Below the pieces are notes generated by a model. That model made no database searches. It was not told the DNA's origin and saw nothing but the letters and a program-made list of their open reading frames with translations. A DNA stretch of 64,000 nt from Symbiodinium sp. CCMP2592 (Eukaryota; Sar; Dinophyceae; Suessiales; Symbiodiniaceae): positions 236,001-300,000 of the forward strand of contig CAJNDT010005824.1 of NCBI GenBank assembly GCA_905221615.1, written 5' to 3'. The position numbers and the translations under genes are program-made. Positions 6,480 to 25,328 of the stretch are shown here, piece after piece (the first letter of the stretch is position 1; each line of letters opens with the position of its first letter).

Positions 6480-6527
6480 TTTGTAGTGTCAAACAACCAT
6501 AAGTTTGTAGTGTCAAACAACCATAAG
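6480..6527 (+). repeat. 24-bp direct repeat, two exact copies, at island left edge
   Basis: The unit begins TTTGTAGTGTCAAACAACC and occurs at 6480-6503 and 6504-6527 with no difference. Each copy carries one AGTGTCA, and these are the first motif occurrences of the island. It could mark the integration edge or simply be a small tandem duplication. Confidence 0.85.
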
Positions 6528-6546
6528 CCACGTTAGCTCAAGCTGC

Positions 6547-6599
6547 CACTCGAAACGAATTGTCAGTGGTAATTTACCACTGACAATTCGCTTCGAGTG
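6547..6599. repeat. 53-bp near-perfect palindrome at island left edge
   Basis: Two 26-nt arms, starting CACTCGAAACGAATTGTCAG and ending its complement, are separated by one T and differ at one position. It lies 20 bp after the 24-bp direct repeat and immediately before the satellite. A cruciform, protein-binding site or element terminus are all possible. The sequence does not decide between them. Confidence 0.85.
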
Positions 6600-9500
6600 T
6601 CAGCAAGCTTCTCATGTGAACATCGCCCTCACCGTGGATCACCTCGAGTGTCAGCGTGGAGCCCTAGAGTGCAGAGTCATGCTGGTGTTTGCGGCAAGAC
6701 CCATTCGCCGCTGCGGCAAGACCCATTCGCCGCTAGCAGGGTCAGGGTCTGAGGGTAGCATCTAAGAGAGAGTCATGCGGCATGGACCATTCGCCGCCGA
6801 GAGCTAGGATGAGAGTCATGTTCTTATCGTCTGCTAGAGTCAGATGCCATAGGTAGGTCGGCAGAGTGTCATAGCAGTGACTTGCAAGAGCAGTTTGTCA
6901 GTGTCAGGTACCACATTGCATCACCGAGGCCAGACCTTCCAGTGTCAAGCGATGGCAGGACACTGAGCGATTGCAGTCAGGGTCATCGCCTGAGAGCGCA
7001 GATGCATCCGGAGTGCAGTGTCATTTTGTGCGGCATGACCCATTCGCCGCTAGCAGTGTCAGGGTTTGAGTGTAGCATCTAATCTAAGAAAGAGTCATGC
7101 GGCATGGACCATTCGCCGCCGAGAGCTAGGATGAGAGTCATGTTGTTCAATGATTATTTTCGTCGTCGTCTATTTTAATAATTAAATGACATATTTAGTT
7201 TAATATTTAAATTTAATTATAATAAATAAATATTATTCAATAAATGATGCCATAGGTAGGTCGGCAGAGTGTCATAGCAGTGACTTGCAAGAGCAGTTTT
7301 TGTCAGTGTCACATATAACAATAATAATTTCAATTTAATATAATAATTAAACACATTGCATCACCGAGGCCCGACCTTCCAGTGTCAAGCGATGGCAGGA
7401 CACTGGGCGATAGCAGTCGGGGTCATCGCTTCAGAGTGCAGTGTCATTTTGTTGCGGCATGACCCATTCGCCACTAGCAGTGTCAGGGTTTGAGTGTAGC
7501 ATCTAAGAGAGAGTCATGCGGCATGGACCATTCGCCGCCGAGAGCTAGGATGAGAGTCATGTTCAATCATCATCTAAGCTGCTAGAGTCACATGCCAAGA
7601 GTGTCACAGCAGTGACTTGCAAGAGCAGTTTGTGAGTGTCACATGCATCACATTGCATCACTGAGGCCAGACATTCCAGTGTCAAGCGATGGCAGGACAC
7701 CGAGCGATTGCAGTCAGGGTCAGCGCCTGAGAGCACAGAGGCATCCAGGGTGTAGTGTCATGTTGTTGCGGCATGACCCATTCGCCGCTAGCAGTGTCAT
7801 GGTCTGAGGGTAGCATCTAAAAGAGTCATGCGGCATGGACCATTCGCCGCCGAGAGCTAGGATGAGAGTCATGTTCTTATCATCTATCTGCTAGAGTCAG
7901 ATGCCATAGGTAGGTCGGCAGAGTGTCATGGCAGTGACTTGCAAGAGCAGTTTTTGTCAGTGTCACATAATATATCACATTGCATCACCGAGGCCCGACC
8001 TTCCAGTGTCAAGCGATGGCAGGACATTGGGCGATTGCAGTCAGGGTCATCGCTTCAGAGTGTAGTGTCATTTGGTTGCGGCATGACCCATTCGCCGCTA
8101 GCAGTGTCAGGGTTTGAGTGTAGCATCTAAGAGAGAGTCATGCGGCATGGACCATTCGCTGCCGAGAGCTAGGATGAGAGTCATATTGTTCAATTATCGT
8201 CTATTAATCTGCTAGAGTCACGTGCCATAGGTAGGCCGGCAGAGTGTCATAGCAGTGACTTGCAAGAGCAGTTTTGTGAGTGTCACATGTATCACATTGC
8301 ATCACTGAGGCCAGACCTTCCAGTGTCAAGCGATGGCAGGACACCGAGCGATTGCAGTCAGGGTCAGCGCCTGAGAGCACAGAGGCATCCAGGGTGTAGT
8401 GTCATGTTGTTGCGGCATGACCGAATTCGCCGCTAGCAGTGTCATGGTTTGAGGGCAAAATCTAAGAGAGTCATGCGGCATGGACCATTCGCCGCCGAGA
8501 GCTAGGATGAGAGTCATGTTCTTATCGTCTATTATTATCTGCTAGAGTCAGATGCCATAGGTAGGTCGGCTGAGTGTCATAGCACTGACTTGCAAGAGTT
8601 GTATTATCAGTGTCACATGTATCACATTGCATCACCGAGGCCCGACCTTCCAGTGTCAAGCGATGGCAGGGCACTGGGCGATTGCAGTCAGGGTCATCAT
8701 CGCTTCAGAGTGCAGTGTCATTTTGTTGCGGCATGACCCATTCGCCGCTAGCAGTGTCAGGGTTTGAGTGTAGCATCTAAGAGAGAGTCATGCGGCATGG
8801 ACCATTCGCTGCCGAGAGCTAGGATGAGAGTCATATTGTTCAATTAAATTATCGTCTATTAATCTGCTAGAGTCACATGCCATAGGTAGGCCGGCAGAGT
8901 GTCATAGCAGTGCCTTGCAAGAGCAGTTTTGTGAGTGTCACATGTATCACATTGCATCACTGAGGCCAGACCTTCCAGTGTCAAGCGATGGCAGGACACC
9001 GAGCGATTGCAGTCAGGGTCAGCGCCTGAGAGCACAGAGGCATCCAGGGTGTAGTGTCATGTTGTTGCGGCATGACCCATTCGCCGCTAGCAGTGTCATG
9101 GTCTGAGGGTAGCATCTAAAAGAGTCATGCGGCATGGACCATTCGCCGCCGAGAGCTAGGATGAGAGTCATGTTCTTATCATCTATCTGCTAGAGTCAGA
9201 TGCCATAGGTAGGTCGGCAGAGTGTCATGGCAGTGACTTGCAAGAGCAGTTTTTGTCAGTGTCACATAATATATCACATTGCATCACCGAGGCCCGACCT
9301 TCCAGTGTCAAGCGATGGCAGGACATTGGGCGATTGCAGTCAGGGTCATCGCTTCAGAGTGTAGTGTCATTTGGTTGCGGCATGACCCATTCGCCGCTAG
9401 CAGTGTCAGGGTTTGAGTGTAGCACCTAAGAGAGAGTCATGCGGCATGGACCATTCGCTGCCGAGAGCTAGGATGAGAGTCATATTGTTCAATTATCGTC

Positions 9501-10735
9501 TATTAATCTGCTAGAGTCACGTGCCATAGGTAGGCCGGCAGAGTGTCATAGCAGTGACTTGCAAGAGCAGTTTTGTGAGTGTCACATGTATCACATTGCA
9601 TCACTGAGGCCAGACCTTCCAGTGTCAAGCGATGGCAGGACACCGAGCGATTGCAGTCAGGGTCAGCGCCTGAGAGCACAGAGGCATCCAGGGTGTAGTG
9701 TCATGTTGTTGCGGCATGACCGAATTCGCCGCTAGCAGTGTCATGGTTTGAGGGCAAAATCTAAGAGAGTCATGCGGCATGGACCATTCGCCGCCGAGAG
9801 CTAGGATGAGAGTCATGTTCTTATCGTCTATTATTATCTGCTAGAGTCAGATGCCATAGGTAGGTCGGCTGAGTGTCATAGCACTGACTTGCAAGAGTTG
9901 TATTATCAGTGTCACATGTATCACATTGCATCACCGAGGCCCGACCTTCCAGTGTCAAGCGATGGCAGGGCACTGGGCGATTGCAGTCAGGGTCATCATC
10001 GCTTCAGAGTGCAGTGTCATTTTGTTGCGGCATGACCCATTCGCCGCTAGCAGTGTCAGGGTTTGAGTGTAGCATCTAAGAGAGAGTCATGCGGCATGGA
10101 CCATTCGCTGCCGAGAGCTAGGATGAGAGTCATATTGTTCAATTAAATTATCGTCTATTAATCTGCTAGAGTCACATGCCATAGGTAGGCCGGCAGAGTG
10201 TCATAGCAGTGCCTTGCAAGAGCAGTTTTGTGAGTGTCACATGTATCACATTGCATCACTGAGGCCAGACCTTCCAGTGTCAAGCGATGGCAGGACACCG
10301 AGCGATTGCAGTCAGGGTCAGCGCCTGAGAGCACAGAGGCATCCAGGGTGTAGTGTCATGTTGTTGCGGCATGACCCATTCGCCGCTAGCAGTGTCATGG
10401 TCTGAGGGTAGCATCTAAAAGAGTCATGCGGCATGGACCATTCGCCGCCGAGAGCTAGGATGAGAGTCATGTTCTTATCATCTATCTGCTAGAGTCAGAT
10501 GCCATAGGTAGGTCGGCAGAGTGTCATGGCAGTGACTTGCAAGAGCAGTTTTTGTCAGTGTCACATAATATATCACATTGCATCACCGAGGCCCGACCTT
10601 CCAGTGTCAAGCGATGGCAGGACATTGGGCGATTGCAGTCAGGGTCATCGCTTCAGAGTGTAGTGTCATTTGGTTGCGGCATGACCCATTCGCCGCTAGC
10701 AGTGTCAGGGTCTGAGGGTAGCATCTGAGAGTCAT
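6600..10735 (+). repeat. Satellite of ~325-bp monomers, motif-saturated
   Basis: About 13 head-to-tail monomers can be followed by the landmark GTGTCATAGCAGTGACTTGC, at about 6860, 7265, 7605, 7920, 8242, 8570, 8893, 9220, 9542, 9869, 10192, 10519 and 10828. Typical spacing is 323-327 bp; the first two monomers are longer because of AT-rich insertions (7138-7246 and about 7313-7352). A monomer at 8556-8880 holds nine GNGTCA motifs, all in + orientation. Each monomer also carries paired words GCGGCATG(A/G) and CCATTCGCCGC. Small open frames repeat with the satellite and are not genes. Confidence 0.9.
7610..10705 (+). repeat. 1299-bp higher-order repeat (four monomers), ~2.4 copies
   Basis: Blocks at about 7610-8908 and 8909-10207, and the partial block 10208-10705, line up at a constant offset of 1299 bp. 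Copies are nearly identical; one difference seen is GCATCTAAG at 8110 against GCACCTAAG at 9421. Monomers within a block diverge more than whole blocks do. That is the pattern of recent block amplification of an older satellite. Confidence 0.88.
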
Positions 10736-11543
10736 GCGGCATGAACCAGAGCTAGGAAGAGAGTCATGTTCTGATTCAAGGTGCTGACTTTAAAAATCTG
10801 CTAGAGTCACATGCCATAGGTATGTCGGCAGGGTGTCATAGCAGTGACTTGCAAGAGCAGTTTTTTGCCAGTGTCATGTGTCAGATTGCATCACTGAGGC
10901 CAGACCTTCCAGTGTCAGGCGATGGCAGGACGCTGAGCGATTGCAGAGTCAAGGTTGTCGCCTGAGGGTGCAGTGTTACGGTGTTGCGGCATGACAAATT
11001 CGCCGTGGCAGTGTCATGGCCAATGGCTTGAGAGTGGTATTTGAGAGTCATGCGGCAAGAACCATACGCTGCCTAAGTAGCAGAGTCAGGAGGGGCAGTG
11101 GTCATTGTCATCCATTGCCCAGGGACAGTCAGCGGTAACAGTGGAGTGCAGCAGTGTCACAGCCAGCATGCTTGCGCAAGTGACTGTGGAGTGTCATGGC
11201 TGCTGAGTGTCAGATGCATGACGTCTGAGGCCAGACCCCTCCACAGCCAGAGTCACAGGCAGACTGGAGAGCAAGCCGCTGAGAGTCAGCGGCTTGCCCT
11301 CCAATCTTCTTGATGGCAGGGCGCTGAGTGCTTCCCACCAGAGTCACTGCAAGTTAAGATGGCCGATGATTGCACATGGCTTGAGTGTCATTGGTTGGCA
11401 TGGACAGATTGGCTTTGGGCCCAGGGCAGAGTCATTTGACATTGCCATTGAACACGTACACACTCGTTATATACCAAAGCTACAGCAGTGTCATCTTTAT
11501 CCCTGACCTCCTTGATCATCGTAGCCTCACCAGTGTCACAGCC
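10736..11543 (+). other. Diverged satellite then motif-rich non-coding DNA
   Basis: Up to about 11100 the sequence is recognisable as decayed satellite monomers (GCGGCATGACAAATTCGCCG near 10986, a variant near 11053). Beyond that the monomer is lost but GNGTCA stays dense (for example 11153, 11191, 11382, 11481, 11533). Open frames here overlap in all phases and none is convincing. The final part may be the promoter or 5' leader of the coiled-coil gene. Confidence 0.6.
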
Positions 11544-12668
11544 ATGGTGAATCGCCTCCGTGGACGTGGCAGCAAGGGTGAGAAGGGGGAAAGGACTGTT
11601 GTGATTGAGGGATCATGGAAATTTAGTTTTTAGTGTCAGTGCTCGGAATGCAGCAGTCACAAGTTGCATTCCCCGCAGGACTGAGAGCACATCCTCCCAA
11701 CTGCGAGGGTCAATGCACCGATGTGCACAAAATATGCTGGGCCGACTGGAATTGGAGAACGAGCGTCAGCAGGACATCTGAAATAAGAATTGTAAATTCT
11801 AATTCATTAATACTAAGAATGAGACTATATCAGTGCCATGATACAATATTATGTCGTCAAGTTTTATTATAATATTTAATTATTTGTTTCTCATTCCTGA
11901 ACAGGAACAGCTGGCCCGAGCCCAAGCGGAGCTAGAGTCACGAGAACGTCGATGGCGTCAGGAAAAATCTGAGATGGAAGAACACCACAGCAGAGTCATT
12001 CAGGACAACTTGTTTCAACTGCATAAGACTCAGGGTTTTAGAAATTAGACTACTAACTTACTTTACTATCTTATAACTGACCATTGATCAAATACAGATT
12101 TAATATTGTTAAACCTTCTCCATGTGTTCTTTGCTTGCCCGAAGGATCTCAAGAATGACCACGCAAAGAAATTCGCCCTGCAGGAGGTAGAGTCATTGGC
12201 ACAACAGGACAAGAGGGAGGAAGTCCACACAAAGAGGGTCAAGCGCTTGGAGGACAGCCTCGAGGCGGAGCAGTCAGAGCATAAGAAGTGCAAGCTCTTT
12301 CTGGAGGACCGGTGTGTCATGAGCAATTGTTAATTATTATAATAATGAATTCAAATATATTAATTACTACGCTGAAAATAACATGGATTCTGAAACTGCT
12401 CGCCCCGAAGGAGTGTCAAGGCGCACTGAAAAAGCAGAAGGAAGATCGCGACTTTGAGCAGGGTCAGCGCATAAAATTGCGAGAGCAGTTGGAGGAGAGT
12501 CAGAAGCAATGCAACCGCTACAAAGCAGAGCGTGACAAGCTCAAAGGGTCAGCGGGCAAAGCGAACGTTGTGCCCACCAAAGCCCAGACACCTTCTGTCG
12601 CAAAGACAGTGTCAGGCGACCCAAAACCTCCTGTGCAAACGGCAAACCCAGAGTCAGCCAAGAAGTAG
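11544..12668 (+). CDS. Coiled-coil protein, five exons, 230 aa
   Basis: Exons can be joined in frame as 11544-11593, 11679-11772, 11905-12033, 12145-12306 and 12411-12668, giving 693 nt including the stop (230 aa). Each junction keeps the frame. The short basic N-terminus (MVNRLRGRGSKGEKGE) is followed by a Glu/Lys/Arg/Gln-rich helix typical of a long coiled coil across exons 2 to 5, then a Lys/Pro/Thr/Ser-rich tail ending SAKK. No catalytic motif is seen; a structural or scaffold role is inferred. The four introns are 85, 132, 111 and 104 bp, AT-rich, with donors AG|GACTG, AG|GACAT, AG|GGTTT and AG|GACCG and acceptors AG|GA, so AGG(A) is directly repeated at both ends. GNGTCA is frequent in the exons and rarer in the introns. 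The ATG choice is plausible, but an upstream exon is not excluded. Confidence 0.72.
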
Positions 12669-13770
12669 CTGCCAGTCCTTGCTTCAGTGTCATTAATTTT
12701 AATAACTAATTAATTTATTGAGCTTAGCAATTTTATCTAGGCACCACATGGTCGGATGACTCAGGGTCATGCCATCGCACTCCGTTAGCTATAGAAGCCG
12801 GAGTGTCAGTGTAGACTTTTTGACGAATCGCAGCTCTAGTGCCTTTCGAGCCGACTGTGGGCACTGTCAAAAAAAGTGTTTCGGTGAGTCCCTGCGAGTG
12901 CATGTTTGCTTCTATTAGTGTCATTGATTGCCTTTGCACTGAGGCACATCGACAATGGCCGCAGCGGAGAGGCCAGGAGGTCATGAGAGTCATGTTGCAG
13001 CAGGGGTCAGTGCAGTGAAGCTGCTTGCAGAGTAGTGTGATTCATTGTCATCTTATCGCCCCAACGTGTGCCAGGCTTCCACATTCCAGTGTCATCCTGC
13101 CAGATGCAGCAGGTGCCAGCCCCTTTCTGCTTTGCTCAGTGTCAGACTGTCAGACTTGCGGAGTCATGCCATGTGTTGCATTGAATTGCTATCCTCTGCA
13201 AGATCGTGGGCTCGCTGTGTCAACATGAGCATGTGAAGTTGTCAGCGACCAGAACATCAGAAACAGATATTTTGCAGCATTGCAGTTAGAGTTAAGTGAT
13301 TTTCGACTACTCTGTCTCAGTCATTTAGTGTCAGGAGATTGTTGGCACAGAGCAAGCTAACGCCTTTTTTGGTTCATGGCCGACTGGCGACCTCAGGGTC
13401 AGTCTCGCGCCTTCACCCTGCTGCCTCCGAACCACCAAGTGTCAGCTGAGGGTTGTGACCGTGGTGCGGTGCAGGTGTGTTTGAGACATGGCAATGCACA
13501 GTTTGAGTGTCACTTGTGCTGTTAGTTTTGTCAACTGACACTGCTTGTCAGGTCTTCTTCCTCCTGCACTTCATTTCCCCAGAGTCAGGGGCAGACGTGG
13601 CTCGCCATTTGTGCGAGCAGGAGAAGTCAAACAAGTCCGGGTGGTGTATCAAGACAGTTCAAACGAACTTGCGAGAGTCACTTGTTTGCAGTTGGTTTTA
13701 ATGTGTGCCGCTCAGAGTCAACTGCCACGGTTTGCCAGTGTCAGATCGCAACTAAGGTTAAACCGCCAAT
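12669..13770 (+). other. Motif-rich intergenic DNA, possible lost exon
   Basis: This 1.1-kb stretch has an AT-rich patch at 12690-12735 and then dense GNGTCA in + orientation. A frame at about 13570-13700, after a CCCCAG acceptor-like site, reads as an ordinary soluble peptide (ESGADVARHLCEQEK), but no start or partner exon could be fixed. I see no RNA gene or foldback element here. Confidence 0.45.
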
Positions 13771-13873
13771 ATGGCTTCCCCGACATCTAAGAGTCACGGT
13801 CAGGCCAATATGGATTCCCGGACATCTCAGGGTCAGGAAGGTTACGAGGACGACATGGCTTCCCAGGCACGAG
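13771..13873 (+). CDS. Candidate first exon of the Gln-rich gene
   Basis: An ATG at 13771 opens a Ser/Gln/Gly-rich frame (MASPTSKSHGQANMDS...) that stops near 13890 if unspliced. Splicing after CGAG at 13873 (AG|GG donor, like intron 3 of the coiled-coil gene) to the acceptor TTTGCAG|CC at about 13945 joins it in frame to the main open frame. The composition matches the downstream protein. The ATG at 13963 would serve equally well as a start, so this exon is a suggestion only. Confidence 0.35.
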
Positions 13874-13962
13874 GGTCACTCACATTATAGTGTGTTTGAA
13901 TTAATACACAGTGTCATGCATTTGCACAGTGTCTTGCATTTGCAGCCCCCTGCCAGTGGTCA

Positions 13963-15552
13963 ATGGGGCAGACGGTCAGCTCCTTGGAGATCCAGGGGGA
14001 CAGTGTCAGCTCGGTGAGACCTCCAGACGCAGCGTCAGGGACCCAGCACCGGACCTACCAGGCCTCCCAGACCCAGAGTCATGCGTCAGCGACCCAGCAG
14101 CACTACCCGCCCCAGAGTCATCATGAGACGATCCAAGACATGACTCAGAGTAGTCACTGGGGATATGTCAGCCAAAGGGAGGTTCCGGTTCCCGACTCCA
14201 TGGCCAACAGTGCTCAGTGGATCAGCGTCACTGAGGAGCCGGAGTCTGCACCGGGTTTGTGGGATGCACCGCCGCAGAGTCAGACTGAAGCACCCCCGGG
14301 TTTGTGGGAAGCACCGCAGCAGAGTCAGACTGAACAGCAGCCCCAGAGTCCACAGCAGCCCGAGAGTCCACCCGAGGGTCAACAGCAGGCTGAGACCGTT
14401 GACTTGACCTATGAGGACCAGGGTCACGGTCAAGCTGCCACCAGTGACCAACCCTCCGAGGAGCAGAGTCGGGAGACTGAAGCACCTGCCGACCAGAGTC
14501 AAGCCCCCACCGATCCAGCACAGGACGAGCCAACGGAGGAGCCGCAGGACGAGCCGTCTGAGAGTCAGGTACCGCAGGGCGACTGGGGTGCGGACCGATG
14601 GCCGCCAAGCCAGCAGCAGCGTCAGGATCAGAGCAGCCTGCCACAGCAGCAAGACCAGCAACAGCCACAGCCGCAGCAGGCACAGGGTCAACAGCGGCAA
14701 GACCAGCCACAGCCGCAGCAGCCGCAGCAGCCCCAGGGTCAAGCTGATGCCAATACCAACTACTATGACCCCAACGCCAACAACTACTACTGGAACCAGG
14801 GTCAGGGTCAGCAAGACCAGATTTGGAATCACGGCCAACAGGGTCGGGGTCGCAACCGATCAGGCTCCAACAGGCGAAATCGAGCCCAGGGTCAGGAGCA
14901 ATGGCAGAATTGGGGTCAGGGTCAAGGCAATGGTTGGGGCTGGCATCAGCAGCAGCAGAGTCAGAACAACTCACAGCAGCAGACGCAGCAGGGTCAGGAC
15001 GACTGGAGCAGGCGCTCCCCGAGGAATCAGCAATGGAACCGCTGGTGGGAAGCGTCATCCTTTCCCAGGAACGACCCGCAACACCTGGGACACGAGTGGG
15101 AAGACAGTGTCAATACTGACTTCAACTACCCCAGCCGTCAGCGTCAGCCAGCTACCCCGTCCCAGGCCGCTGCAGCAGCGTCATCGACCCAGGCCGATCC
15201 GAACCAAGCCGGAAAGGGTCAGCGACCAAAAGGGGCTGGCCGTGGTCTGGGCCCAAGAGACGTGGACTACCCACGTCTCCCACGGCCGAACCCAGTGTCA
15301 AGACGCACTGAAACCGACTTCCGCAGTGTCATGTGGCCTAGCTGCATATTTTCCTGTCATGTGGATTCCAGAGTCATTGCCTTTCTGTCTGATTCTTGGC
15401 TCAGGGACGAGATGATGGATGACATCGCCTTCTCCGAGGAGACCAAAAACAGCGTCAGGGATCTTCTGGCGTTTGGCCGCAAGGGTCATGTACGTGCAGG
15501 TCTGATTATGCTGCTTGGTTTGCAAAAACATCATGCCAATCTCGAGTGTTAG
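13963..15552 (+). CDS. Gln-rich, prion-like disordered protein
   Basis: Open frame of 529 aa from ATG 13963. The N-terminus is MGQTVSS, a Met-Gly start compatible with N-myristoylation. Residues ~95-125 contain a tandem repeat of about 15 residues with core PGLW(D/E)AP.QSQTE. Residues ~130-390 are low complexity: Gln, Ser, Gly, Asn, Tyr and Trp rich with interspersed Arg (RGRNRSGSNRRNR), as in prion-like RNA-granule proteins. The tail turns acidic and helical (DEMMDDIAFSEETKNSVRDLL). Many Gly-Gln and Ser-Gln pairs come from in-frame AGGGTCA and AGAGTCA motifs. The out-of-character hydrophobic stretch encoded at about 15325-15400 may be a retained intron ending CTCAG|G at 15401. An additional last exon may lie at 15615-15737 (TQALQAKWQKPYGRY...), whose junction I could not resolve. 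Function unknown; RNA binding is an inference. Confidence 0.6.
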   Translation: MGQTVSSLEIQGDSVSSVRPPDAASGTQHRTYQASQTQSHASATQQHYPPQSHHETIQDMTQSSHWGYVSQREVPVPDSMANSAQWISVTEEPESAPGLWDAPPQSQTEAPPGLWEAPQQSQTEQQPQSPQQPESPPEGQQQAETVDLTYEDQGHGQAATSDQPSEEQSRETEAPADQSQAPTDPAQDEPTEEPQDEPSESQVPQGDWGADRWPPSQQQRQDQSSLPQQQDQQQPQPQQAQGQQRQDQPQPQQPQQPQGQADANTNYYDPNANNYYWNQGQGQQDQIWNHGQQGRGRNRSGSNRRNRAQGQEQWQNWGQGQGNGWGWHQQQQSQNNSQQQTQQGQDDWSRRSPRNQQWNRWWEASSFPRNDPQHLGHEWEDSVNTDFNYPSRQRQPATPSQAAAAASSTQADPNQAGKGQRPKGAGRGLGPRDVDYPRLPRPNPVSRRTETDFRSVMWPSCIFSCHVDSRVIAFLSDSWLRDEMMDDIAFSEETKNSVRDLLAFGRKGHVRAGLIMLLGLQKHHANLEC

Positions 15553-16235: not shown

Positions 16236-16288
16236 GGTGTCTGGCACATTCGGCTATGAGGATCTCTTGGCCGAATGTGCCAGACACC
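16236..16288. repeat. 19-bp perfect inverted repeat
   Basis: Arm 16236-16254 (GGTGTCTGGCACATTCGGC) is exactly complementary to 16270-16288, with a 15-bp loop. It lies just downstream of the GA microsatellite. It could be a transcript hairpin or a foldback insertion. Confidence 0.85.
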
Positions 16289-16475
16289 CACTCGTCCGAG
16301 CCATTTGGCAGACGTCCGTTGGAAGCCCAGGAACAGCTGAGGGAATGGAGTGTTGCCTTGCAGCTGCTAGAGTGAATTAGAGGTATACTTGGCCTGTATA
16401 AGAGAGTCAGAGAGACGTGAGGGTGTAGTCACCACTCCATGCATGGCCGAGGCTGACAGTGTCAACATCATCCTG

Positions 16476-16544
16476 CCACAACTTCTCCAACAAAGGCAAA
16501 GCTTATGGGACTCATAAGCCTTGCCTTTGTTCGAGAAGATGTGG
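16476..16544. repeat. Imperfect ~32-bp inverted repeat
   Basis: The arms 16476-16507 and 16513-16544 pair with about three mismatches and a very short loop (around GGACT). The stem contains ACAAAGGCAAAGCTTATG. This is the second hairpin within 300 bp. Neither matches the flank foldback families. Confidence 0.75.
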
Positions 16545-16890
16545 AGCAAGACCTGAGGCGGGGCCTGCGAGTGTTGTCCTGTGCCAGTGGTCATGTCATT
16601 CAGCACTTTCAGTGTCATTTTGCTCAGTCAATCAATGAAGGCCGTTAGCAGAGTCAGCAAAACCTGCTCGCAGAACGACGACAACACAGGAAGTTGCTCA
16701 GAACAACCACATCGGGTCAACTGTTAAATCTCATTGTATTGCTACTGTGTTCATAGTGCAATGACAGCCAGACAATCAAAGTTAAGTTCAATGACTAGTC
16801 ACCAGTCAGTACCTTAGTCGTCGTATTACAGTAGTGTCAGTTTCGAGAAGTTCAGATAATAAGAAATCATTGCTTTACAGAGCCAGAGTC
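16545..16890 (+). other. Leader region upstream of the cysteine-motif gene
   Basis: Non-coding, with scattered GNGTCA. It ends with TTGCTTTACAG|AGCCAGAGTC just before an ATG. That acceptor-like site could be used by a cis intron or, if this is a dinoflagellate, by spliced-leader trans-splicing. The alternative is not testable from sequence alone. Confidence 0.4.
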
Positions 16891-17595: not shown

Positions 17596-18580
17596 GCGTC
17601 AAAACAGTCAGTGCTCTGAATGCTGCCATCGTCACGACAGTCATATCAATTTAAGATCAGCCAGCATTTCATTGCCAAACATGACCCACTGCTGTGACAG
17701 GCCTGTGGTGATCTGCCTGTGGATGAGTGATGAGTCAGCCAGAGCCCCGTCTGACTGCACTAAATTAAATAAGATATATAATAATTCAGGAGCCGTTGCT
17801 GGTTTCAGGAAATTCAGAGTCTTATCTTGCCCCATTTGGCTGGGTGCCTGCAAGCTTTTGCCAGGTAGCGAGCTGGAGCACCTGGTGTGGATAGCCCTGT
17901 GCTGAGTTTTCCCTGTGTAAAACCGAATTGAGAGCCACAGTCCTTTCCTGTTCGCGGCATGTCCCATTCGCCGCTAGTAGTTAATCTTCCAATAATTCCA
18001 CTAAGTAGCACTTTGTGCGGCAAGTCCCATTCGCTGCCAGAGCTCACAACTACTAGTTGTCTTTGTTGTCTTCAGCCTCAAGCCTTAGATTCCAGCAGCA
18101 ATAACAAATAGAGTCAAACTCAGTGGCATATGTTGGCTTACTTGAGCCCCATGGCAGCATGCATGTACCAATCGAAGCCTAGCAGGGCATCTATCGCAGG
18201 CAAGTGGCAGGTCATGTTCATGTCCCATCCCCTCGGTTCCTCAGATCTTCGAAACAGTCAGTATAAGTATTACCCATGGTCAAGTGTCAGATCACTGTGT
18301 TGTTTTTTGCAAAAACCCAACTCGCACCCAAGTCGCACACTAATATTTTAGTCACAGGTGGTCAGCCTGACCGCACAGTGCCACTTGCTCAGTCTGTGTG
18401 TGGGTGTGCACTGCGAGCGTTGGTGTGCTGCCGCTTGTTTCTATCTACACCCAGTGTCATTGGGCCAGGAGATTTTCGACAGCTGAGGGGTTTCGGGTCT
18501 TTGAGACTTGACAAGTAGGATTTCAGTGTCAAGCAATTCTGATTCAAATTGTCATTCTTGAGTCCCTTAATAATAATAGC
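17596..18580 (+). other. Intergenic, with two satellite-related hairpin words
   Basis: No convincing coding exon is seen. At 17954-17974 and 18017-18037 lie copies of the satellite core GCGGCAWG...CCATTCGCYGC, each able to form a 5-bp GCGGC/GCYGC stem. The GNGTCA motif continues at lower density. An AT-rich patch lies at 17757-17787. Confidence 0.5.
17954..18037 (+). repeat. Two dispersed copies of the satellite core word
   Basis: Two 21-bp words beginning GCGGCAWG and ending CCATTCGCYGC are 63 bp apart. The same word occurs twice in most satellite monomers between 6.7 and 11.1 kb. Here it stands alone in unique DNA, 7 kb from the satellite. Confidence 0.75.
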
Positions 18581-18640
18581 ATGGAGCAGCCAACTGCCTC
18601 AGGTGTTGAAGCCCTTTCGCCGGCGGATGCCCAGCGGGTC
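18581..18640 (+). CDS. Candidate first exon of the hAT-like transposase
   Basis: The ATG at 18581 opens MEQPTASGVEALSPADAQR, an ordinary N-terminal peptide that becomes non-plausible and stops in the following 100 bases. A splice near CCCAGCGG|GTCAGC to an acceptor such as TTCTCAG at about 18893 would join it to the long frame that follows. Phase and junction are not proven. Confidence 0.3.
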
Positions 18641-18865
18641 AGCAGGCCTTCTTGGCACGGTTGCACTGTTGTGATTTATAGTCCTCTGCCAGGTTTGCTC
18701 CAATTGAATACAAGCGGGGAAGCAGAGACGCCTTAGCAATTTGCTGCTGCGGAGATGTCATAATGAGTAAGTCCTGTCTCGCGATCCAAAATTCTGCCTT
18801 GAACACATTAATGGGAGGCACTTGGCCAAAATACGACAATGAGCCGTCCGCAACAGTAGGTAATT

Positions 18866-21193
18866 TTGGATCCGTTGAAGTTATTTGGATTCTCAGTGCT
18901 TCAGGTCAGTCAAAGTCAACATTCAAAGGATTCTTCAGATAGCACACGGTGTGGGTTGGAAACAGTGTGTCTCCAAGAAGTGTCAGCAACTGAGCATTTC
19001 AGAACAAACAGCAGAGTCAGAGTCATCGCTGCCATGCTGAGACGTGCGCATTGTGCACCCTCCAAACTGCAGAAGTGTTACGACAACAAGGTGTTCCCTT
19101 CGTCTGGCAAAGTGTCAACTTCCATGGTCAGAACTCGTTCTGCTGCAGCTGCAGAGTCAGCACTTCAAGTTTCCTGCTCGGACAGACCCAAGAGTCAGAA
19201 GCTGGCATCTGCACATGGCACCAAGAGAAAGATGACAGCTTTCAACAACACCAGTGTCAGCGTCCAGACAGAAAGCAATGGCAAGTGTCATGACGAGTTC
19301 GATCAGTCCTGTCCAAGATGTTGGTTCCAGAGATTCAGAGTCAAATGGTGTCAGAGTCACGGCTCTTTTCTGCAGACACGTGCTGGCAAGAGGGTCAGAG
19401 TCACATGGCTCCAAGAAAGACCCAAGAAAATGGGAGGGCCATGGGGTCTCGGATGTGCTGCCTGCGCAGCCCTTCGAGCCCGCTCTCTCAGTGTCAAGGT
19501 CACAGGCAGCAGGAAGAGTCATCGCTGGGATTCCAAATGGGCCAGATATGAGATCCGAGCACTGAGTCAGATGCAAGCGTCAGCGTTGTACCAGCACTCG
19601 CAGTGTCAGATGCACCGACGAGCAGTGCATATGATGCAGTGTCCGGATGAGCCTCTCAGTTGCAGCGTCATGATGCCTCGAGAGGACGAGGATCGACTGA
19701 AGGGTCATGTTCCTGAGTTGGCAGACTGGCTTCGTGCGTGGAGGATGGTGCAGAGCCCAGTGTCATTCTTGAAAGCAGAGTGTCAGTCCCGGACCGAGTC
19801 GTTCATCGGACTTCGCCAGGGTCAGTGCTCGCGAAAAATGTACAAGCAGATGGTTCAGATCATGACAGAAGTCACTCGCAGGCGAAAGCGAAGTGTCATT
19901 CGGTCAGCAAAGTTTATTTCAGTGTCGTTGGATGACAAGGCCCCCTTCAGGGTCATTCGCTTCAGAGCAGTTGCTGGCGAGAGGAAGTCCTCTGAAGACG
20001 AATCCGAAGAGTCACACTGCCCTGTCTTCACCGGCGTCCTTGCAGTTCTCACACACCATGGAAAAGCGTCAGAGACGGATTTGCAAGATCTGGAAGAAGA
20101 CTACAGTGTGAAGGTTTCTGACAGTGTCAAGGTTGGCATTGAGAAGCTTTCCGTGGTGCTTGATGAAGAGTCAGTCGACCTTGACTTGGTGACACACTTC
20201 CTCTCGAGTGTCAGATCCTGCTCGACAGACGGAGCGAAATGTATGAAGAAAAGCATGAGTGTCATGCGAGCAACTTGCCTGCCGAACCTCCAGATCAGCG
20301 TCATAGACCGGGCACATCAGTTCAGACGTGCTGGCTTGCCACTGACAATGGAGAGTCAGTTTGCAGAGTTTTGGCAGCACTTCTGCAGAGTCATTCCGAG
20401 TTTGCAAAACTCGGAACAGTGGAAGCTCAAGTTCCGAGCGATCCAGGCTGAGTGTCAGCCTAACTCTTCGCACAGTGAGAGTGTCAAGCGTGCAATCAGC
20501 ACCCTGAGCTTTGCCAAACAGCGTTTCGACAGCTGTGCTAAGCCACAGAGTCAATATGTTCGGCTCCTGGAGCCGATTGCTCTGCTTCTCGCCTACCAAG
20601 CGTCAGATGTCAGGCTTACACCAAATATGCGATGGAGTTGTCAGCAACTCCTTGAGCAAATGACAGCGAAGCACGTCTTGACAGCAGGAGTGTCTGCCGA
20701 CTTCCACTGTGAACTCCTCAGGGTCATTCGTTTCTGTGACGTTGCCGACCACGACATCAGCAAGTGTCAAGCGGAGAAAGACGACTTTGTCCACAGGGTC
20801 ACAAAGCTTTTCATAGAAGGCCACGTGCTCGCAGATCTTCCAGCTTCAGCAACAGGGTCAGATGAAACCACATGGTCTTTGTTGGCTGTGCAGAATGCCA
20901 TGAAAGCGTCAGCTGTAAGCTATTCTGGAAAGCTGCACCATTTGTGGGGACCTTTGTCCAAGAAACAGTGTCAAGATGTCATGCAGTCGGTTTCCGCTGC
21001 TGCTGATGCCTGCATTGCCAGAGTCAATGCCGACCACCACACTGGTGACCTGCACATGGTGTTTACAGTCTTCGACTTAGTGTCATGGGACAAAGCCAAG
21101 CGAGCTTTGGATCGTGGAGAGTCAGATACGTGGCAGCAACTTCTGCAGATGGCTCGCATTCGCTTGAAAAAGCTGTACCTTGGATCGGCTTAG
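18866..21193 (+). CDS. hAT-like transposase, N-terminal and catalytic part
   Basis: Long frame; the first in-frame ATG is at 19034, so the N-terminus is either there or in an upstream exon. A TTF/BED-like zinc-finger region is visible: PWGLGCAACAALRAR, then SKWARYE-type helix and LYQHSQCQMHRRAV, supplying C-x2-C and H-x5-H. Further on lie three blocks in hAT order: FISVSLDDKAP (first acidic residue), SCSTDGAKCMKK (second) and ISVIDRAHQFRRA, at the position of the usual hAT C.AH.LNL block. I recall DRAH..R-type proteins as common in dinoflagellate proteomes (recollection, not a search). By eye it contains about 50 GNGTCA motifs in all codon phases. The frame ends without a dimerisation domain, which is in the next open frame. 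Intact frames suggest a recently active or domesticated transposase. Confidence 0.6.
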   Translation: MDPLKLFGFSVLQVSQSQHSKDSSDSTRCGLETVCLQEVSATEHFRTNSRVRVIAAMLRRAHCAPSKLQKCYDNKVFPSSGKVSTSMVRTRSAAAAESALQVSCSDRPKSQKLASAHGTKRKMTAFNNTSVSVQTESNGKCHDEFDQSCPRCWFQRFRVKWCQSHGSFLQTRAGKRVRVTWLQERPKKMGGPWGLGCAACAALRARSLSVKVTGSRKSHRWDSKWARYEIRALSQMQASALYQHSQCQMHRRAVHMMQCPDEPLSCSVMMPREDEDRLKGHVPELADWLRAWRMVQSPVSFLKAECQSRTESFIGLRQGQCSRKMYKQMVQIMTEVTRRRKRSVIRSAKFISVSLDDKAPFRVIRFRAVAGERKSSEDESEESHCPVFTGVLAVLTHHGKASETDLQDLEEDYSVKVSDSVKVGIEKLSVVLDEESVDLDLVTHFLSSVRSCSTDGAKCMKKSMSVMRATCLPNLQISVIDRAHQFRRAGLPLTMESQFAEFWQHFCRVIPSLQNSEQWKLKFRAIQAECQPNSSHSESVKRAISTLSFAKQRFDSCAKPQSQYVRLLEPIALLLAYQASDVRLTPNMRWSCQQLLEQMTAKHVLTAGVSADFHCELLRVIRFCDVADHDISKCQAEKDDFVHRVTKLFIEGHVLADLPASATGSDETTWSLLAVQNAMKASAVSYSGKLHHLWGPLSKKQCQDVMQSVSAAADACIARVNADHHTGDLHMVFTVFDLVSWDKAKRALDRGESDTWQQLLQMARIRLKKLYLGSA

Positions 21194-21239
21194 TCCGTTT
21201 TTTGTGTCATCCAAAACTTTGATTATTAAAGCTTACAGT

Positions 21240-22333
21240 CATGAGTTATTCTTGATGCGCTGGATTCCAGATTCAGGTCAAGAGCTGTCAATGTCAGCAG
21301 TTCAGATGCTTTTCAGCAGTTCGAAGGAGTCATGTCAGAGTTGGTGTCAGATCCTAGCACAGTGTCAAAAGCAGCGAAACAGCACGACAACAGACCTGCC
21401 TGGGCCAGGGTCCTTGGGATTGGCACTGCACTGCAAGGCAGTCGTCATTTGACATTGTCAGATGCACTCCCTCAGATAGTGTCATTTTACCTGTCCATCT
21501 TGGACGGGGAATGTTGTGTGGAGAGAGATTTGAGTCTGCTGCGCAATTTCCTGCAAGTGTCAAAGGGTCCACTTGACTTGGATGGCATTACTGTGTCAGA
21601 CCTGCTTGAACTTCGATTGGATGGGCCCAAGGAAGAGTCAGAGGTGGCCACCCCCATTCATGTCCCTGGGTACAGTGTGAACGAAGCCGATGTGTCAGAG
21701 TCAAAGACCTTGTCGTTCACACAGTTTACACGCGATTGTGCTGACCTGTGGCTTCAGCGTCATGGCAGGCGCTTTCGAAGCTACAAGCAGAGAGCTGACA
21801 AGGGCACTGTCAGAGTCAAGAAGAAAGGGACCTTCGCTGCACTGCAGCAGAGTCAGAGAGCAGGAATCCGAACTTTAGTGTCGGGCAAGGCCCCTGAACA
21901 AACATTTTTCGGGTTCAGTGTCAAGGAAGTGCACCGGAAGGAGTGTCACAAGATGGAAAAAAACCCCAAGTGGAACAAGGCATTGCAGGACTTCCACAGA
22001 GTCACTGTCCTCCGAGAGCAGAACAGCCAGGTGGAGCGTCAGAGAAATATGCTCAGAATCAAGCCAAGTCTTCCACCGCTACGGAGAGGCAGTGTCATGA
22101 AGCAATATTCTGGACAGTGTCATGTTACAGTGCCACAGTTTGGAGACAACGATTTGGTTCTGGACTTGACCAAAGACGGTGTCAGTGACATTCCCTCCAT
22201 CGTCACATACAAGCGTCCTCGAGAATTGGCCAAGGTCGACTTTGCAGAGGTCAGGAAGGCAAATCTTCTTGTGGTCGATGACAGTGTCAAAATGGAACAG
22301 CTCCGTTCATCGAATCTCGATTGTGAGGCTTAA
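21240..22333 (+). CDS. hAT-like transposase, C-terminal exon with dimerisation domain
   Basis: The frame with ATG 21332 extends upstream in frame to about 21270 (SRAVNVSSSDAFQQFEGVM), after acceptor-like GGATTCCAG. I therefore read it as the exon after an intron of about 80-100 bp starting near 21190. Exact ends are unresolved. Residues 45-95 (counted from ATG 21332) contain SFYLSILDGECCVERDLSLL followed by a helix and SDLLELRLDGP, matching the layout of the hAT C-terminal dimerisation region, including the Glu-Arg pair that carries the catalytic glutamate. The rest is basic and Gln-rich. Together with 18866-21193 it makes a protein of roughly 1,100 residues, long for hAT. No terminal inverted repeats or 8-bp target duplications were identified. 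Confidence 0.55.
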
Positions 22334-22593
22334 TGACCAGTATCGGATTTGTTTGTTGAGATGGGTTATTTAATTAATAATAATTGCTACAGTTTACAGA
22401 GTGTCAGAGAATACTAAGTTTAATTTAATGTGTGTCACTTTAATATTATTCAATACACAGTCAATATTTAAGTGTGTTGGCCCGGGCTTGATCATTTTCC
22501 CAAAACGATTGATTCATGTAGTCAGGTCTGAGACTAAGACCAACACTTGATAAGTGCAACAACCTTCCAAATACCTCAAGGCTTGGCAGTGTC
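22334..22593 (+). other. AT-rich intergenic DNA
   Basis: AT-rich with TTAATTAATAATAATTGC at 22370-22386 and reduced motif density. It probably holds the transposase 3' end and the next gene's leader. Confidence 0.5.
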
Positions 22594-22995
22594 ATGGCCT
22601 ATCTGACTCTGGTGGCATATGGTGGTGGCTTGATCGGGAAGAAAGACTGGCAGAGTCAGTCCAGGATGGAAAGTATCAGACACTACAAGCCCGCAGCATT
22701 CACTGGAGAGTCAATAATATTTTGTCTAACCCCAGTGTTTCAGCACAACTACCCGAGTGTCAGCAGAGTCATGAAACACATTTGCCAAAATCGTGAATCT
22801 GTTTGGACACTCAGTTGTCAGGCTTCAGAAGCCCGCTTTGAGATAAGTGACTTAGAGTCACTACACACTGCAATGGCAGCAGTCAGGCGTTTGTGCCCAA
22901 GGCGACAGGTGCCTGGAAAGAAAGGCAATGCTTGGCACTTTGGAGTGTCAGCTCCAGTAGCCAAGAAGCCAAAAACAAGGGTCAAGAAGGGTTAG
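22594..22995 (+). CDS. Small basic protein of unknown function, 133 aa
   Basis: ATG 22594 to the TAG at 22993-22995. The first half is hydrophobic and Gly-containing (MAYLTLVAYGGGLIG). The second half has a helix (SDLESLHTAMAAVRRL) and a very basic tail (KKPKTRVKKG) like a nuclear localisation signal. An overlapping frame, 22554-22796, is less protein-like. It may be one exon of a longer gene continuing into the Trp/Gln exon at 23091. No family recognised. Confidence 0.4.
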   Translation: MAYLTLVAYGGGLIGKKDWQSQSRMESIRHYKPAAFTGESIIFCLTPVFQHNYPSVSRVMKHICQNRESVWTLSCQASEARFEISDLESLHTAMAAVRRLCPRRQVPGKKGNAWHFGVSAPVAKKPKTRVKKG

Positions 22996-23045
22996 TGTCA
23001 GTGTCAATCCTACCTAGAAGATACGAATAGTACGAGCCTTCTCTA

Positions 23046-23155
23046 CTAGGGTTTGTTAGACACTAACCTTTCTGAGTTTCCTTCACTCAGTTGTCAGACC
23101 CACAGCTGTGGTCGTATCGAGAGCAATGGGGAGCATGGGGGAAAATGGAGGGTCA
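23046..23155 (+). repeat. Duplicated exon plus upstream intron end, copy 1
   Basis: From TAGGGTTTGTTAGACACTAA through the acceptor-like ACTCAG to GGGGGAAAATGGAG, this matches 23491-23595 with a few substitutions. The duplicated block includes the presumed 3' splice site, so it duplicated as a splice unit. Confidence 0.85.
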
Positions 23156-23290
23156 ACAGTCATTATTGGCGTTTGCTGTCTGGAGAGTTCAGATTGCATG
23201 TCCTTCCGGAGAGTCAGCACAGTTCAAAGATGCAGATGTCTTGCCAGGTCGGGCCCCAGCAGCTTGTGCAGGCAGGGTGTTGTGCAGCAG
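23091..23290 (+). CDS. Exon encoding a Trp/Gln-rich peptide, copy 1
   Basis: After CTTCACTCAG the frame reads LSDPQLWSYREQWGAWGK and continues open through PGRAPAACAGRVL. There is no ATG at its start, so it is an internal exon or a relic. Partner exons are unknown; 22594-22995 upstream and the region after 23600 are candidates. Confidence 0.4.
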
Positions 23291-23490
23291 TGTCATTAGT
23301 CCAGTGAAATTTTGTTGCAGAGATGCCTCTTCAAATTGCTTCGTCACCTCATTTTAATTAGTTAGATTGGAATTGTATAAAAAGCAACTCAACATTTCTG
23401 TATTATTCTATACTAATAAGTCGTCAATCTTGTGACTTCGCAGTCAGGAAAGCCTTCCCAGGGGCCAAGCATCCATCACATGAAGACTAA

Positions 23491-23640
23491 TAGGGTTTGT
23501 TAGACACTAATATCTTTCTGAGTTTCATTGAGTTGTCAGACCCACAGCTGTGGGCGTTTCGAGAGCAATGGGGACCTTGGGGGAAAATGGAGTGTCAGGC
23601 CCCAGCAGCTTGTGCATGCCGGGTTTGCACAGTTGTGCCC
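23491..23640 (+). repeat. Duplicated exon, copy 2, with ~100-bp internal deletion
   Basis: The copy of 23046-23155 resumes with GGCCCCAGCAGCTTGTGCA at 23598, which in copy 1 lies about 100 bp further downstream (23252). Copy 2 thus lacks the middle part of the exon. It still reads LSDPQLWAFREQWGPWGK and then APAACACRVC in one frame. Confidence 0.8.
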
Positions 23641-23725
23641 GCTTCAGGTAACGCCCATCCAGAGTCACATCGTCGAGAGAACCAAGGCCCGCTGCACATC
23701 AGAGGGCAGACTTCGCTGTAAAAGG

Positions 23726-23815
23726 TATTGGCATATGCATACTGGGTATGCCAATACCTCGATCGTTGGCGCCAACGGCCGAGGTATTGGCATACCCAGT
23801 ATGCATATGCCAATA
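23726..23815. repeat. 90-bp inverted repeat with perfect 36-bp arms
   Basis: Arms 23726-23761 and 23780-23815 are exact reverse complements starting TATTGGCATATGCATACTGG. Each arm is itself a small hairpin (GGTATTGGCATA against TATGCCAATACC). The 18-bp centre contains the palindrome CGTTGGCGCCAACG. Confidence 0.93.
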
Positions 23816-23916
23816 GCGTCAACACTTGTCTGAGCTCTTTGAGGTATTGGCTCATGCGTTCTGCACATGTCAATAGGTCGGCCGTTGGCGCCAACGATCG
23901 AGGTATTGGCATACCC
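23744..23916. repeat. Overlapping inverted repeat with perfect 38-bp arms
   Basis: Arm 23744-23781 (starting GGGTATGCCAATACCTCG) is exactly complementary to 23879-23916. It overlaps the 90-bp inverted repeat, so the same DNA can fold in two mutually exclusive ways. The GGCGCC-centred palindrome appears once in each arm. Confidence 0.93.
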
Positions 23917-23990
23917 CAGAACATAAAGAGTCGCAGATCTTGCCATCTAGGATCATTCGAGCCACTAGCACAGAGTCAGTGTCATCCGCC

Positions 23991-24539
23991 ATGGTCAACC
24001 CTGCCCCGAAAGTGGTGCAGCCAAGACGGGCCCCGAAAAAGCCTGACACAGGGTCAGTGCCAGAGCAGAAAGAGCCTTCAGGGTCAGTGCTGAAACTGAA
24101 AGAGCCTTCAGGGTCAGTGCCACAACAGAAAGAGCCTTTGGTGCAGCCTTCCGAATCGCCCAAGAGTCAGCTGCCTCCAAGGCCTCAGGCGACTCCCCAG
24201 CAGGGGTCACAGAAGCCAGCTTCACCTCCAGCGTCACCGACAGTGAAAATGGCTGAGCAAGAGCCAGAAGTGTCACCTCCAGTTGACGATTTGGTTATTC
24301 CTGTGGAAAAGTTGAAGGCAAAGGAGAGCACACCAGTGTCAACTCGCATGCACATGCCTGCACTTCCGGACGAGGAAGAGTCAAAGACGACTGGAGCGTA
24401 CATTTTCATGAAGAGTGTCATTCGCTTTGTGCTTGGCTCTGAAATTAGCAACAGATTTAGTTTGCCAGTGTTTCTTAGGGGATTTTATACGCAGACGTCT
24501 GACAAATCTAGACAGTGTCAGTTTTATGTTGTAGTTTGA
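23991..24539 (+). CDS. Pro/Ser-rich protein, first coding exon
   Basis: ATG 23991 encodes MVNPAPKVVQPRRAPKK and then a disordered Pro/Ser/Gln/Lys-rich stretch with about three repeats of a unit with core (K)EPSGSV..QK (24040-24140), each built around CAGGGTCAGTGC. The last 50 codons before the stop look intron-like. Splicing near 24410 (FMK|) to the acceptor TGTCAG|GTGCACC at 24569/24570 would join it to the exon that follows. The donor is unresolved. The gene starts about 75 bp after the nested palindrome, which may be in its promoter or leader. Confidence 0.5.
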   Translation: MVNPAPKVVQPRRAPKKPDTGSVPEQKEPSGSVLKLKEPSGSVPQQKEPLVQPSESPKSQLPPRPQATPQQGSQKPASPPASPTVKMAEQEPEVSPPVDDLVIPVEKLKAKESTPVSTRMHMPALPDEEESKTTGAYIFMKSVIRFVLGSEISNRFSLPVFLRGFYTQTSDKSRQCQFYVVV

Positions 24540-24569
24540 TTTGACAATTGATGTCAGTGTCAGTGTCAG

Positions 24570-25328
24570 GTGCACCAACAACGTCCAGAGCGACTCCAGA
24601 GTCATGGCCAGAAGCTGCATGACATCCCGCCCTTGGAGATCACATGTGACAAGGCCAGAGTCACGAACTACAAGGAGGTGTGGAACCCTGACAATTGCAG
24701 TGTCAGTGTCACAAGAACCTCGATGTATGAAGCTGGTGGATCCATCTACTGGCTGGACCCGTTTCCCTTGTTTCTCCAGGGTCAGGGTCATCCGGGCCAC
24801 AACCTTCTTCTTGAAGAACCTTCGGTGTCAGAGGTCATTGAGGTTCAGACTGCCTTGATGCACAGTGTCAGCAACAACTCCAAGAAAGTGTCAGGAGTCA
24901 GGCTGCATTTCTCAGACCCGTTCCTGGCAGAGTCAAAAGATCTCGGTCGACTTCCTGTGTGGCCTAAAGGGTTGCAGCTCATTGCAGGGTCAGCCAGGCT
25001 TTTCGCTTGGTACTTGAGCATGGGCCAGGCTTTGGATGAAGAGTCAAAGGCCACTGTGCTACCGCCCCTGGAAGAGTCAAGAGTCTGGGAGCTCCACACA
25101 ATGGCCTTGAGTGTCACGATTCGGGCATTCAATCTTGATGAGAAAGAGTTAATCATAGAGGCCTTGAAGCACTCAGAGAGAGTCAGGGTCGGTGCTTTGG
25201 CGGATAGCTTCCACACCTTCGCAAAGAGGGTCAATGCGGTCGCTTCTGAGGGCAGCCAAGCATCTGTGTTGAAGCGCTTTGAAGAGTCAGGTGTGAAGTT
25301 CAATGGTCAGAGAGTCAACACGACCATG
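24570..25328 (+). CDS. Unknown globular protein exon, cut by assembly gap
   Basis: The open frame runs from the acceptor TGTCAG|GTG into the N run, so its 3' end is missing. About 250 residues are visible and look globular: CSVSVTRTSMYEAGG, YWLDPFPLFLQGQGHPGHN, then helices such as RVGALADSFHTFAKRVNAV. I recognise no family. It is probably the second exon of the gene starting at 23991. Motif density stays high right up to the gap. Confidence 0.5.

Follow-up and report, generated by a model that had tools for sequence, protein, structure and literature searches.

Background

The closest described systems are found in plants and in Symbiodinium itself. According to the accessible parts of the reports on the VANDAL transposons of Arabidopsis, VANC21 binds YAGTATTAY, a dense and same-oriented motif, VANC6 is associated with a different one, and the VANDAL/VANC motifs are in general family-specific, located mainly in non-coding DNA and in part within tandem repeats (PMC5735166; PMC10398659). 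Two Symbiodinium retrotransposons, SymbioLINE-Dnmt and SymbioDIRS-Dnmt3, have been described as carrying a cytosine-5 methyltransferase (PMC5890265), and DNA transposons of fungi as encoding TET/JBP dioxygenases (PMC12730594), again as far as the available portions of these reports go. Here we analyse a window of 64,000 nucleotides (nt) of DNA from the coral-symbiont dinoflagellate Symbiodinium sp. CCMP2592 (contig CAJNDT010005824.1), which contains the left part of a large DNA transposon in which the word AGNGTCA (N, any base) recurs in one orientation through satellites and genes alike. A literature search for an element marked by a word in this way, mostly at the level of titles and abstracts, found no description. 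The assertion of the preliminary description of this DNA, that no described system marks a region so, was nevertheless too strong, since the VANDAL/VANC motif arrays (PMC5735166, as far as that report was accessible) are a close precedent, though their motifs are mainly non-coding.

An oriented word covering a DNA transposon

Between positions 6480 and 25328 of the window the + strand carries 336 copies of AGNGTCA and the - strand 3, while the rest of the window contains only 8 and 7 copies, respectively. In the non-satellite part of this island (11017–25328) it is the top-ranked heptamer with one free inner position, with 217 occurrences observed against 11.9 expected, and 3 reversed. All six fixed positions are sharp (the 18 one-base variants count 1–13 each), and the free position leans towards T and A (T 87, A 71, G 37, C 22; n = 217). 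The island had been recognised earlier as one of the hexamer GNGTCA; its density stands, while the unit turns out to be a strand-specific heptamer, the strandedness having gone unstated. The claim of about 50 words in 18961–21140 corresponds to 45 AGNGTCA (47 GNGTCA) against 2.6 expected under a first-order Markov model, the nine words reported in the satellite monomer 8556–8880 are present, and the quoted first spacings in the transposase frame (34, 6, 92, 42, 38, 62 and 31 base pairs, bp) are exact. The right edge at 25328 is not the end of the island; it is an assembly gap, and other copies continue to about 34 kilobases (kb). The principal features are as follows.

6405–25328, + strand: family A transposon, left ~19 kb, with alignments of 99.4–99.7% to five other contigs
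6405–6421, + strand: left terminal inverted repeat CTGGGCTGTGCTTTCGG, equal at 13 of 17 positions to the reversed right end of other copies, CTGGGATGGGCTTTGGC
6480–25328, + strand: AGNGTCA array, 336 (+) and 3 (-) by word count
7352–11016, + strand: left satellite, period ~325–330 bp, nine words in one counted monomer
25329–25428, no strand: assembly gap of 100 N, with the rest of the element present in other copies

The island belongs to a DNA transposon of ~34 kb, called here family A, of which the window holds the left portion up to the gap that cuts it. Alignments to the copies on five other contigs begin at window positions 6403–6405 and extend past the N gap at 25329, and 4-bp target-site duplications (ACAT, CATA, ATCA and CATT) flank all four copies of which both ends were read. 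The element thereby has both marks of a cut-and-paste DNA transposon, inverted repeats and a duplication of fixed length. One copy (C8), ~34.3 kb long with a 100-N gap included and with GAG in place of CAG at its right terminus, contains 528 words in the sense orientation and 10 reversed over its 34.3 kb. The first word lies 80 bp from the left end and the last ~155 bp from the right end, and the density amounts to 20–28 per kb in the left satellite, 14–18 in the right end region and up to 22 in gene regions. Beyond the gap the other copies contain an open reading frame (ORF) termed orf459, a cytosine-5 DNA methyltransferase, a right repeat region (82 words in 5.3 kb, with repeat copies offset by ~112 bp) and the right end. 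The word runs end to end, through the satellites and through coding sequence in all three frames; seven coding segments of family A hold 146 words in 8508 nt, i.e. 17 per kb, compared with 15 per kb across the entire non-satellite part of the island.

The preliminary description had proposed that a short word marks this region and had named an equal density everywhere in the organism as the finding that would contradict it. In the DNA examined the density is not equal, and the word is concentrated in the element. Over 91 kb of DNA outside it, a set that includes five loci picked for matching the doublet AGNGTCAGAGTCA, AGNGTCA occurs 23 times on the + and 18 times on the - strand; this background density rests on the 91 kb and the doublet-chosen loci, not on a genome-wide heptamer count. 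The doublet itself has 601 genomic places, compared with 389 for its reversed control, and none of the 11 loci fetched at doublets outside the element has a word island (at most 5 words per 2 kb).

The spacing of the words, formerly called irregular, is indeed aperiodic in family A but it is not random: 70% of the gaps measure 30–80 bp, against 35±3% under random placement, and 8% measure 8–29 bp, against 26±3%. No helical phasing was found in family A; the analysis yielded a weak peak at 7.0 bp, with a value of 7.2 where the 95% limit is 6.9.

A translated search of the genome (1.098 gigabases in 5383 contigs) revealed at least 58 matches to the transposase, 58 being the number scored of 638 first-look candidates; some of these are fragments of a single copy, and others may have been duplicated in the assembly near gaps. 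Thirty are full-length at 100% identity, which points to a recent burst of family A.

Diverged families with their own words

Genome searches with homologues from other strains identified three further families in this genome, all diverged from A, namely B (contig C1335), C (C1180) and D (C2985); the searches for relatives scored 45 of 566 and 48 of 590 candidates, so that more families are possible. A search with P0006, a transposase relative, yielded 72 matches, and all among the matches listed also match family A. The word differs between families: A and C have AGNGTCA, B has AGNGTGA and D has CAGTGTCA. AGNGTGA occurs 101 times in the 18 kb of family B, with 10.6 expected and 2 reversed, and is first among the ranked gapped heptamers. 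The two words are well separated, as AGNGTCA occurs only 10 times in family B and AGNGTGA only 7 times in the window island. In family C, AGNGTCA (82 against 5.3 expected, 6 reversed) again ranks first, and this word had been predicted from the protein P0003 and recorded before the sequence was retrieved. The word of family D was not predicted beforehand; CAGTGTCA occurs 45 times, never reversed, and plain AGNGTCA ranks seventh, the narrowing consisting of T at the free position in 49 of 54 cases and C as the preceding base in 48 of 54. An alignment of A with B contains 5 sites at which each family has its own word at the same place, against ~0.6 expected by a hand calculation (58 x 30 sites over ~3100 positions).

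With respect to spacing, family B has 2% of its gaps at 8–29 bp (12±3% under random placement) and 21% at 30–80 bp (22%), family C has 11% (16±4%) and 27% (28%), and family D has 15% (12±4%) and 38% (21±5%).

The order zinc-ribbon-like protein (zn266), transposase, orf157, orf494 is common to all four families, orf494 of family C being recognised from a 46-amino-acid (aa) match at the margin of the retrieved sequence, and the word is oriented in the sense of the genes in every one of them. The copies of these genes in the window are listed below.

16795–17595, + strand: zn266, candidate DNA-binding protein with a zinc-ribbon-like CxxC..CxxC start (by eye), relatives in B, C and D
18860–21193, + strand: transposase-like protein, 777 aa from stop to stop, relatives in B, C and D
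21245–22333, + strand: C-terminal part of the transposase, with a match to the homologue P0002 that spans both ORFs; relatives in B, C and D
22522–22995, + strand: orf157, small conserved protein, relatives in B, C and D
24552–25328, + strand: start of orf494, conserved in the four families and a candidate reader of the word

Imprint on genes and proteins

The transposase ORF contains 45 words, whereas synonymous shuffling, with the protein and codon usage fixed, leaves 8.6 on average and 16 at most in 500 trials. Among the coding segments of family A, 7 of 8 exceed the maximum of 500 such shuffles and the first methyltransferase exon ties with it (7 against 7), and in family B the maximum is exceeded by 6 of 8. 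Shuffles of the codon order in family A average only 0.4–2.1 words, which argues that not only the codons but also the amino acids fit the word. The effect is seen directly in the valine codon of the phase AGN|GTx|Ann, which is GTC in 48 of 51 cases in family A and GTG in 27 of 28 in family B, other valine codons being used similarly. The coding words are distributed over the three reading phases as 48/45/53 in family A and 27/29/0 in family B (n = 56), and the phase that is empty in B is one that would create TGA stops there.

The word was also sought with a protein-only score over the 4096 words of the shape xxNxxxx. This score ranks AGNGTCA first for the transposase of family A and AGNGTGA first for the proteins of family B. 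In other Symbiodinium, the protein alone gives AGNGTGA as rank 1 of 4096 for P0002 (S. natans) and AGNGTCA as rank 1 of 4096 for P0003 (CCMP2456), and both keep this rank once tripeptides identical to family A are dropped. P0001 also has AGNGTCA first, but with these tripeptides dropped AGNGTCA falls to 44th place and AGNGTGA stands 8th. In 60 residue shuffles of each protein the best ranks were 228 (P0002), 32 (P0003) and 65 (P0001). Ten other homologues used as controls exhibited no imprint, P0040 coming closest with rank 30, and amino-acid inference gave no clear word for the more distant transposases P0005 and P0006. Altogether, 5 of 89 homologues rank one of the two words first, namely P0001–P0004 and the methyltransferase P0048; P0004 is family C of the same genome (100% match to C1180) and hence not independent. 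P0006 (1299 aa) contains several repeats of the peptide AGQTA, perhaps the trace of a different word in the DNA of its element.

A methyltransferase encoded by the element

A cytosine-5 DNA methyltransferase follows the shared gene block in 4 of 4 families. The family A enzyme, beyond the window gap, matches Pfam DNA_methylase with 34.3 bits (cut-off 22) and one exon of the family B enzyme scores 29.4 bits; those of families C and D were located with the gene order of B as a guide to their position. By eye, the sequences contain GTDC(S/A)GA, GFPC, ENV, RRPR and GN(T/S/A)M, which we take to be the catalytic stretches of cytosine-5 methyltransferases. The word occurs in the methyltransferase intron as well as in the exons. 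In viral contigs, two weak matches to the methyltransferase and no match to the transposase were found.

The observed/expected ratio of CpG is 0.55 in family A, 0.73 in family B and 0.50–0.57 outside. As a separate observation, the element is enriched in TpG and CpA (1.30–1.38 of expected with the words masked) and the DNA outside it is not (0.91–0.98), with CpG low in both.

Interpretation

We regard it as probable, if by no means assured, that these elements are giant Symbiodinium transposons in which a family-specific word of fixed orientation serves as a watermark for self-recognition, is read on the DNA by a protein that the element itself encodes, and has an epigenetic effect. What suggests such a code and such a reader is the combination of one orientation throughout, the presence of the word in satellites and genes, the imprint on amino acids, the base-by-base change between families and the rarity of the word in neighbouring DNA. 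The word, a heptamer or octamer specific for each family and carried in one orientation over the whole element, would be bound along the double strand by an element-encoded protein, which would separate the element from the host DNA. The bound protein could then set the epigenetic state of the element, most likely protecting its expression and mobility from silencing by the host. Candidates for the reader are the cytosine-5 methyltransferase and two conserved proteins that accompany it, orf494 and zn266. The fixed orientation together with the even filling of gaps in family A suggests that binding may be head-to-tail, or that modification may be strand-specific, along the element.

A more specific proposal, which we offer tentatively, is that the word is read by the methyltransferase, which would methylate just one of the two strands, so that each family would bear a private strand-asymmetric barcode along its full length, genes included. 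If the methyltransferase is the reader, its target cytosine should lie opposite a G common to all three words, i.e. opposite G2 or G4 of AGNGTCA, the same Gs being present in AGNGTGA and CAGTGTCA. In such a case a eukaryotic element would possess a methylation dialect of its own.

Several observations weigh against self-recognition by an element-encoded reader. Motif sites are no better conserved than other positions among copies: near-identical copies differ at 5 of 1293 motif columns and 70 of 13019 other columns, and in three other copies motifs changed even more, at 9 of 1562 positions against 30 of 14642 elsewhere. Selection has to be deduced from the words themselves and from the comparison between families. 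The copies of family A compared are 99.4–99.9% identical, with no old ones among those fetched, and C>T changes are too few to judge decay at methylated cytosines (two copies at one site at motif position 6 against 3 elsewhere; in a second set, none at motifs and 2 elsewhere). In family B segment mt1 only ties with the shuffle maximum (2 against 2) and the zinc protein falls below it (1 against 2), and the preference of family A for gaps of 30–80 bp is shared by neither B nor C. Families B, C and D are represented by one locus each (18, 9.5+2.5 and 9.5+2.5 kb), and a sample of four families and three words is too small to assign the word to any single protein. When the 79 methyltransferase homologues are pooled, the two words rank 3572 and 1669, so that no imprint is visible. 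Finally, the saturation of genes calls for an additional explanation, given that VANC motifs are mainly non-coding.

The alternative that survives best, although we consider it unlikely, is a code in RNA, where AGNGUCA in the sense transcript would be bound by an RNA-binding protein of the element or the host and would act in processing, export or escape from small-RNA silencing. The agreement of word and gene sense in all four families and the occurrence of the word in exons and in the methyltransferase intron would fit such a code; the satellites, filled to 80 bp from the left and ~155 bp from the right end, would also have to be transcribed.

CACTA elements have subterminal repeats to which a transposase-type protein binds, such known subterminal sites being near the ends. 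More doubtful still than an RNA code is a related role here, in which the transposase or a helper would coat the element through many sites so that only its own copies are mobilised. The restriction of the dense word to the element among the DNA examined and its change with the transposase family are as such a role would require. The word density at the right end (14–18 per kb) does not exceed that of some gene regions, which reach 22 per kb, and among the repeats only the left satellite is denser (20–28); moreover, the protein sequence itself carries the imprint. Both points speak against it.

A biased process of writing or mutation, inserting or converting the word without benefit to the element, could account for the very high density, the broad coverage and the tandem amplification in satellites. 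We nonetheless find it quite improbable, as coding constraint is visible in the phases of family B, where the frame with TGA stops is unused (27/29/0, against 48/45/53 in A), one-base-off forms are rare, and gaps of 8–29 bp are avoided in A and B, if not clearly in C or D.

The satellite 7352–11016, a true tandem repeat that makes up about one fifth of the island, would favour an explanation by chance, tandem repetition, codon usage, ordinary composition or an assembly artefact. Such an explanation can nevertheless be practically dismissed, as the Markov, synonymous-shuffle and codon-order controls contradict it, and the same element is assembled on many contigs and has relatives with different words.

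If the word is indeed a self-recognition mark, proteins of a mobile element would have been bent to carry a DNA word that can be read from the protein alone in other species. The families might then serve as a clean system for studying how a selfish element is told apart from its host and how a reader and its word evolve together one base at a time, and they would bear on the role of the cytosine methyltransferases carried by dinoflagellate elements.

Other genes and sequence features

Three further ORFs of family A lie in the window.

12285–12668, + strand: ORF of 127 aa, coiled-coil-like by eye, with no family match
13900–15552, + strand: ORF of 550 aa, Q/W-rich, of low complexity and word-dense
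23877–24539, + strand: low-complexity ORF of 220 aa that includes a 30-bp tandem repeat in which the word occurs

The 550-aa ORF has counterparts in family B (by eye, a W/Q-rich ORF at a comparable position) and in family C (a 49-aa match). The transposase-like protein has 10 homologues, the best at 62%, the named ones being from Symbiodinium. It has no Pfam/NCBIfam family above the cut-off that would place it in a transposase superfamily, and no match to a PDB sequence; orf494 likewise lacks a family above the cut-off in Pfam/NCBIfam-type searches, and for both proteins the absence of a match is weak evidence. For orf494, no homologue at E <= 0.001 was found among the 7999 protein-collection candidates scored, and zn266 has no Pfam match. 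The methyltransferase is the only product with a Pfam family above the cut-off among the scanned ORFs, a part of the total, and no reverse transcriptase was detected among them. The orf459 product, looked for and present in A and B beyond the window, contains VDLTPGSG (A) or FDCTPGSG (B), resembling a loop that binds nucleotides or S-adenosylmethionine; it has no family match above the cut-off and is possibly a second modification enzyme.

Inside the element, AT-rich and nearly word-free stretches (TAATAA, TTTAAT; 7146–7245, 11800–11890, 22360–22480 and similar) break up the satellite and the gene region and by eye resemble small insertions or introns; words similar to TAATAA/TTTAAT are enriched in family B. 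At 23720–23910 a repeated and inverted unit with TATTGGCATA around a GGCGCCAACG core looks foldback-like by eye. To the right of the gap, 26385–29995 comprises a AATTAAAT/ATTTAATTC repeat array with GC-rich blocks (TGCGGCCCGAGCCCC) and several nested periods. Telomere-like TTTAGGG/CCCTAAA words are scattered in both orientations through host DNA (1–6400 and 28000–64000) with ~2 to 11 per kb when counted in bins of 4 kb; the element has none between 8001 and 24000.

Comparison with known systems

Two bacterial systems share parts of the pattern. DNA uptake sequences of Neisseria and Pasteurellaceae are short words in coding and non-coding DNA that serve self-recognition and form dialects between relatives; they differ in being chromosome-wide, on both strands and read by an uptake protein. 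Type III restriction-modification systems have an asymmetric site whose orientation matters and methylate in a strand-specific manner; there, however, adenine is methylated, and sites are avoided or tolerated, not accumulated.

Among mobile elements, SymbioLINE-Dnmt and SymbioDIRS-Dnmt3 likewise combine mobility with a cytosine-5 methyltransferase, but the element described here has inverted-repeat ends and 4-bp duplications, with no reverse transcriptase among the ORFs scanned, and the accessible part of the report on the retrotransposons mentions no dispersed motif (PMC5890265). The fungal transposons with TET/JBP dioxygenases are also DNA transposons with a DNA-modification enzyme, but one of the opposite type, and what is accessible of their description mentions no dispersed motif either.

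The resemblance to VANDAL/VANC, judged by the accessible parts of those reports, is closer. VANDAL elements have a Mutator-type (MULE) transposase and an anti-silencing VANC protein that binds the motif and removes silencing marks; among the ORFs tested here neither a match to a Pfam transposase model nor a VANC-like protein was found, which is weak evidence. The present families likewise have a short, family-specific motif at high density and in one orientation, with the array partly in tandem repeats here too. They differ in their dinoflagellate host, in the element-encoded DNA methyltransferase and in the place of the motif, which is not mainly non-coding (the 17 per kb of coding DNA against 15 per kb of the non-satellite stretch) and saturates coding DNA in all permitted frames. 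The marking is best read as similar to that of VANDAL/VANC, but extending into coding DNA.

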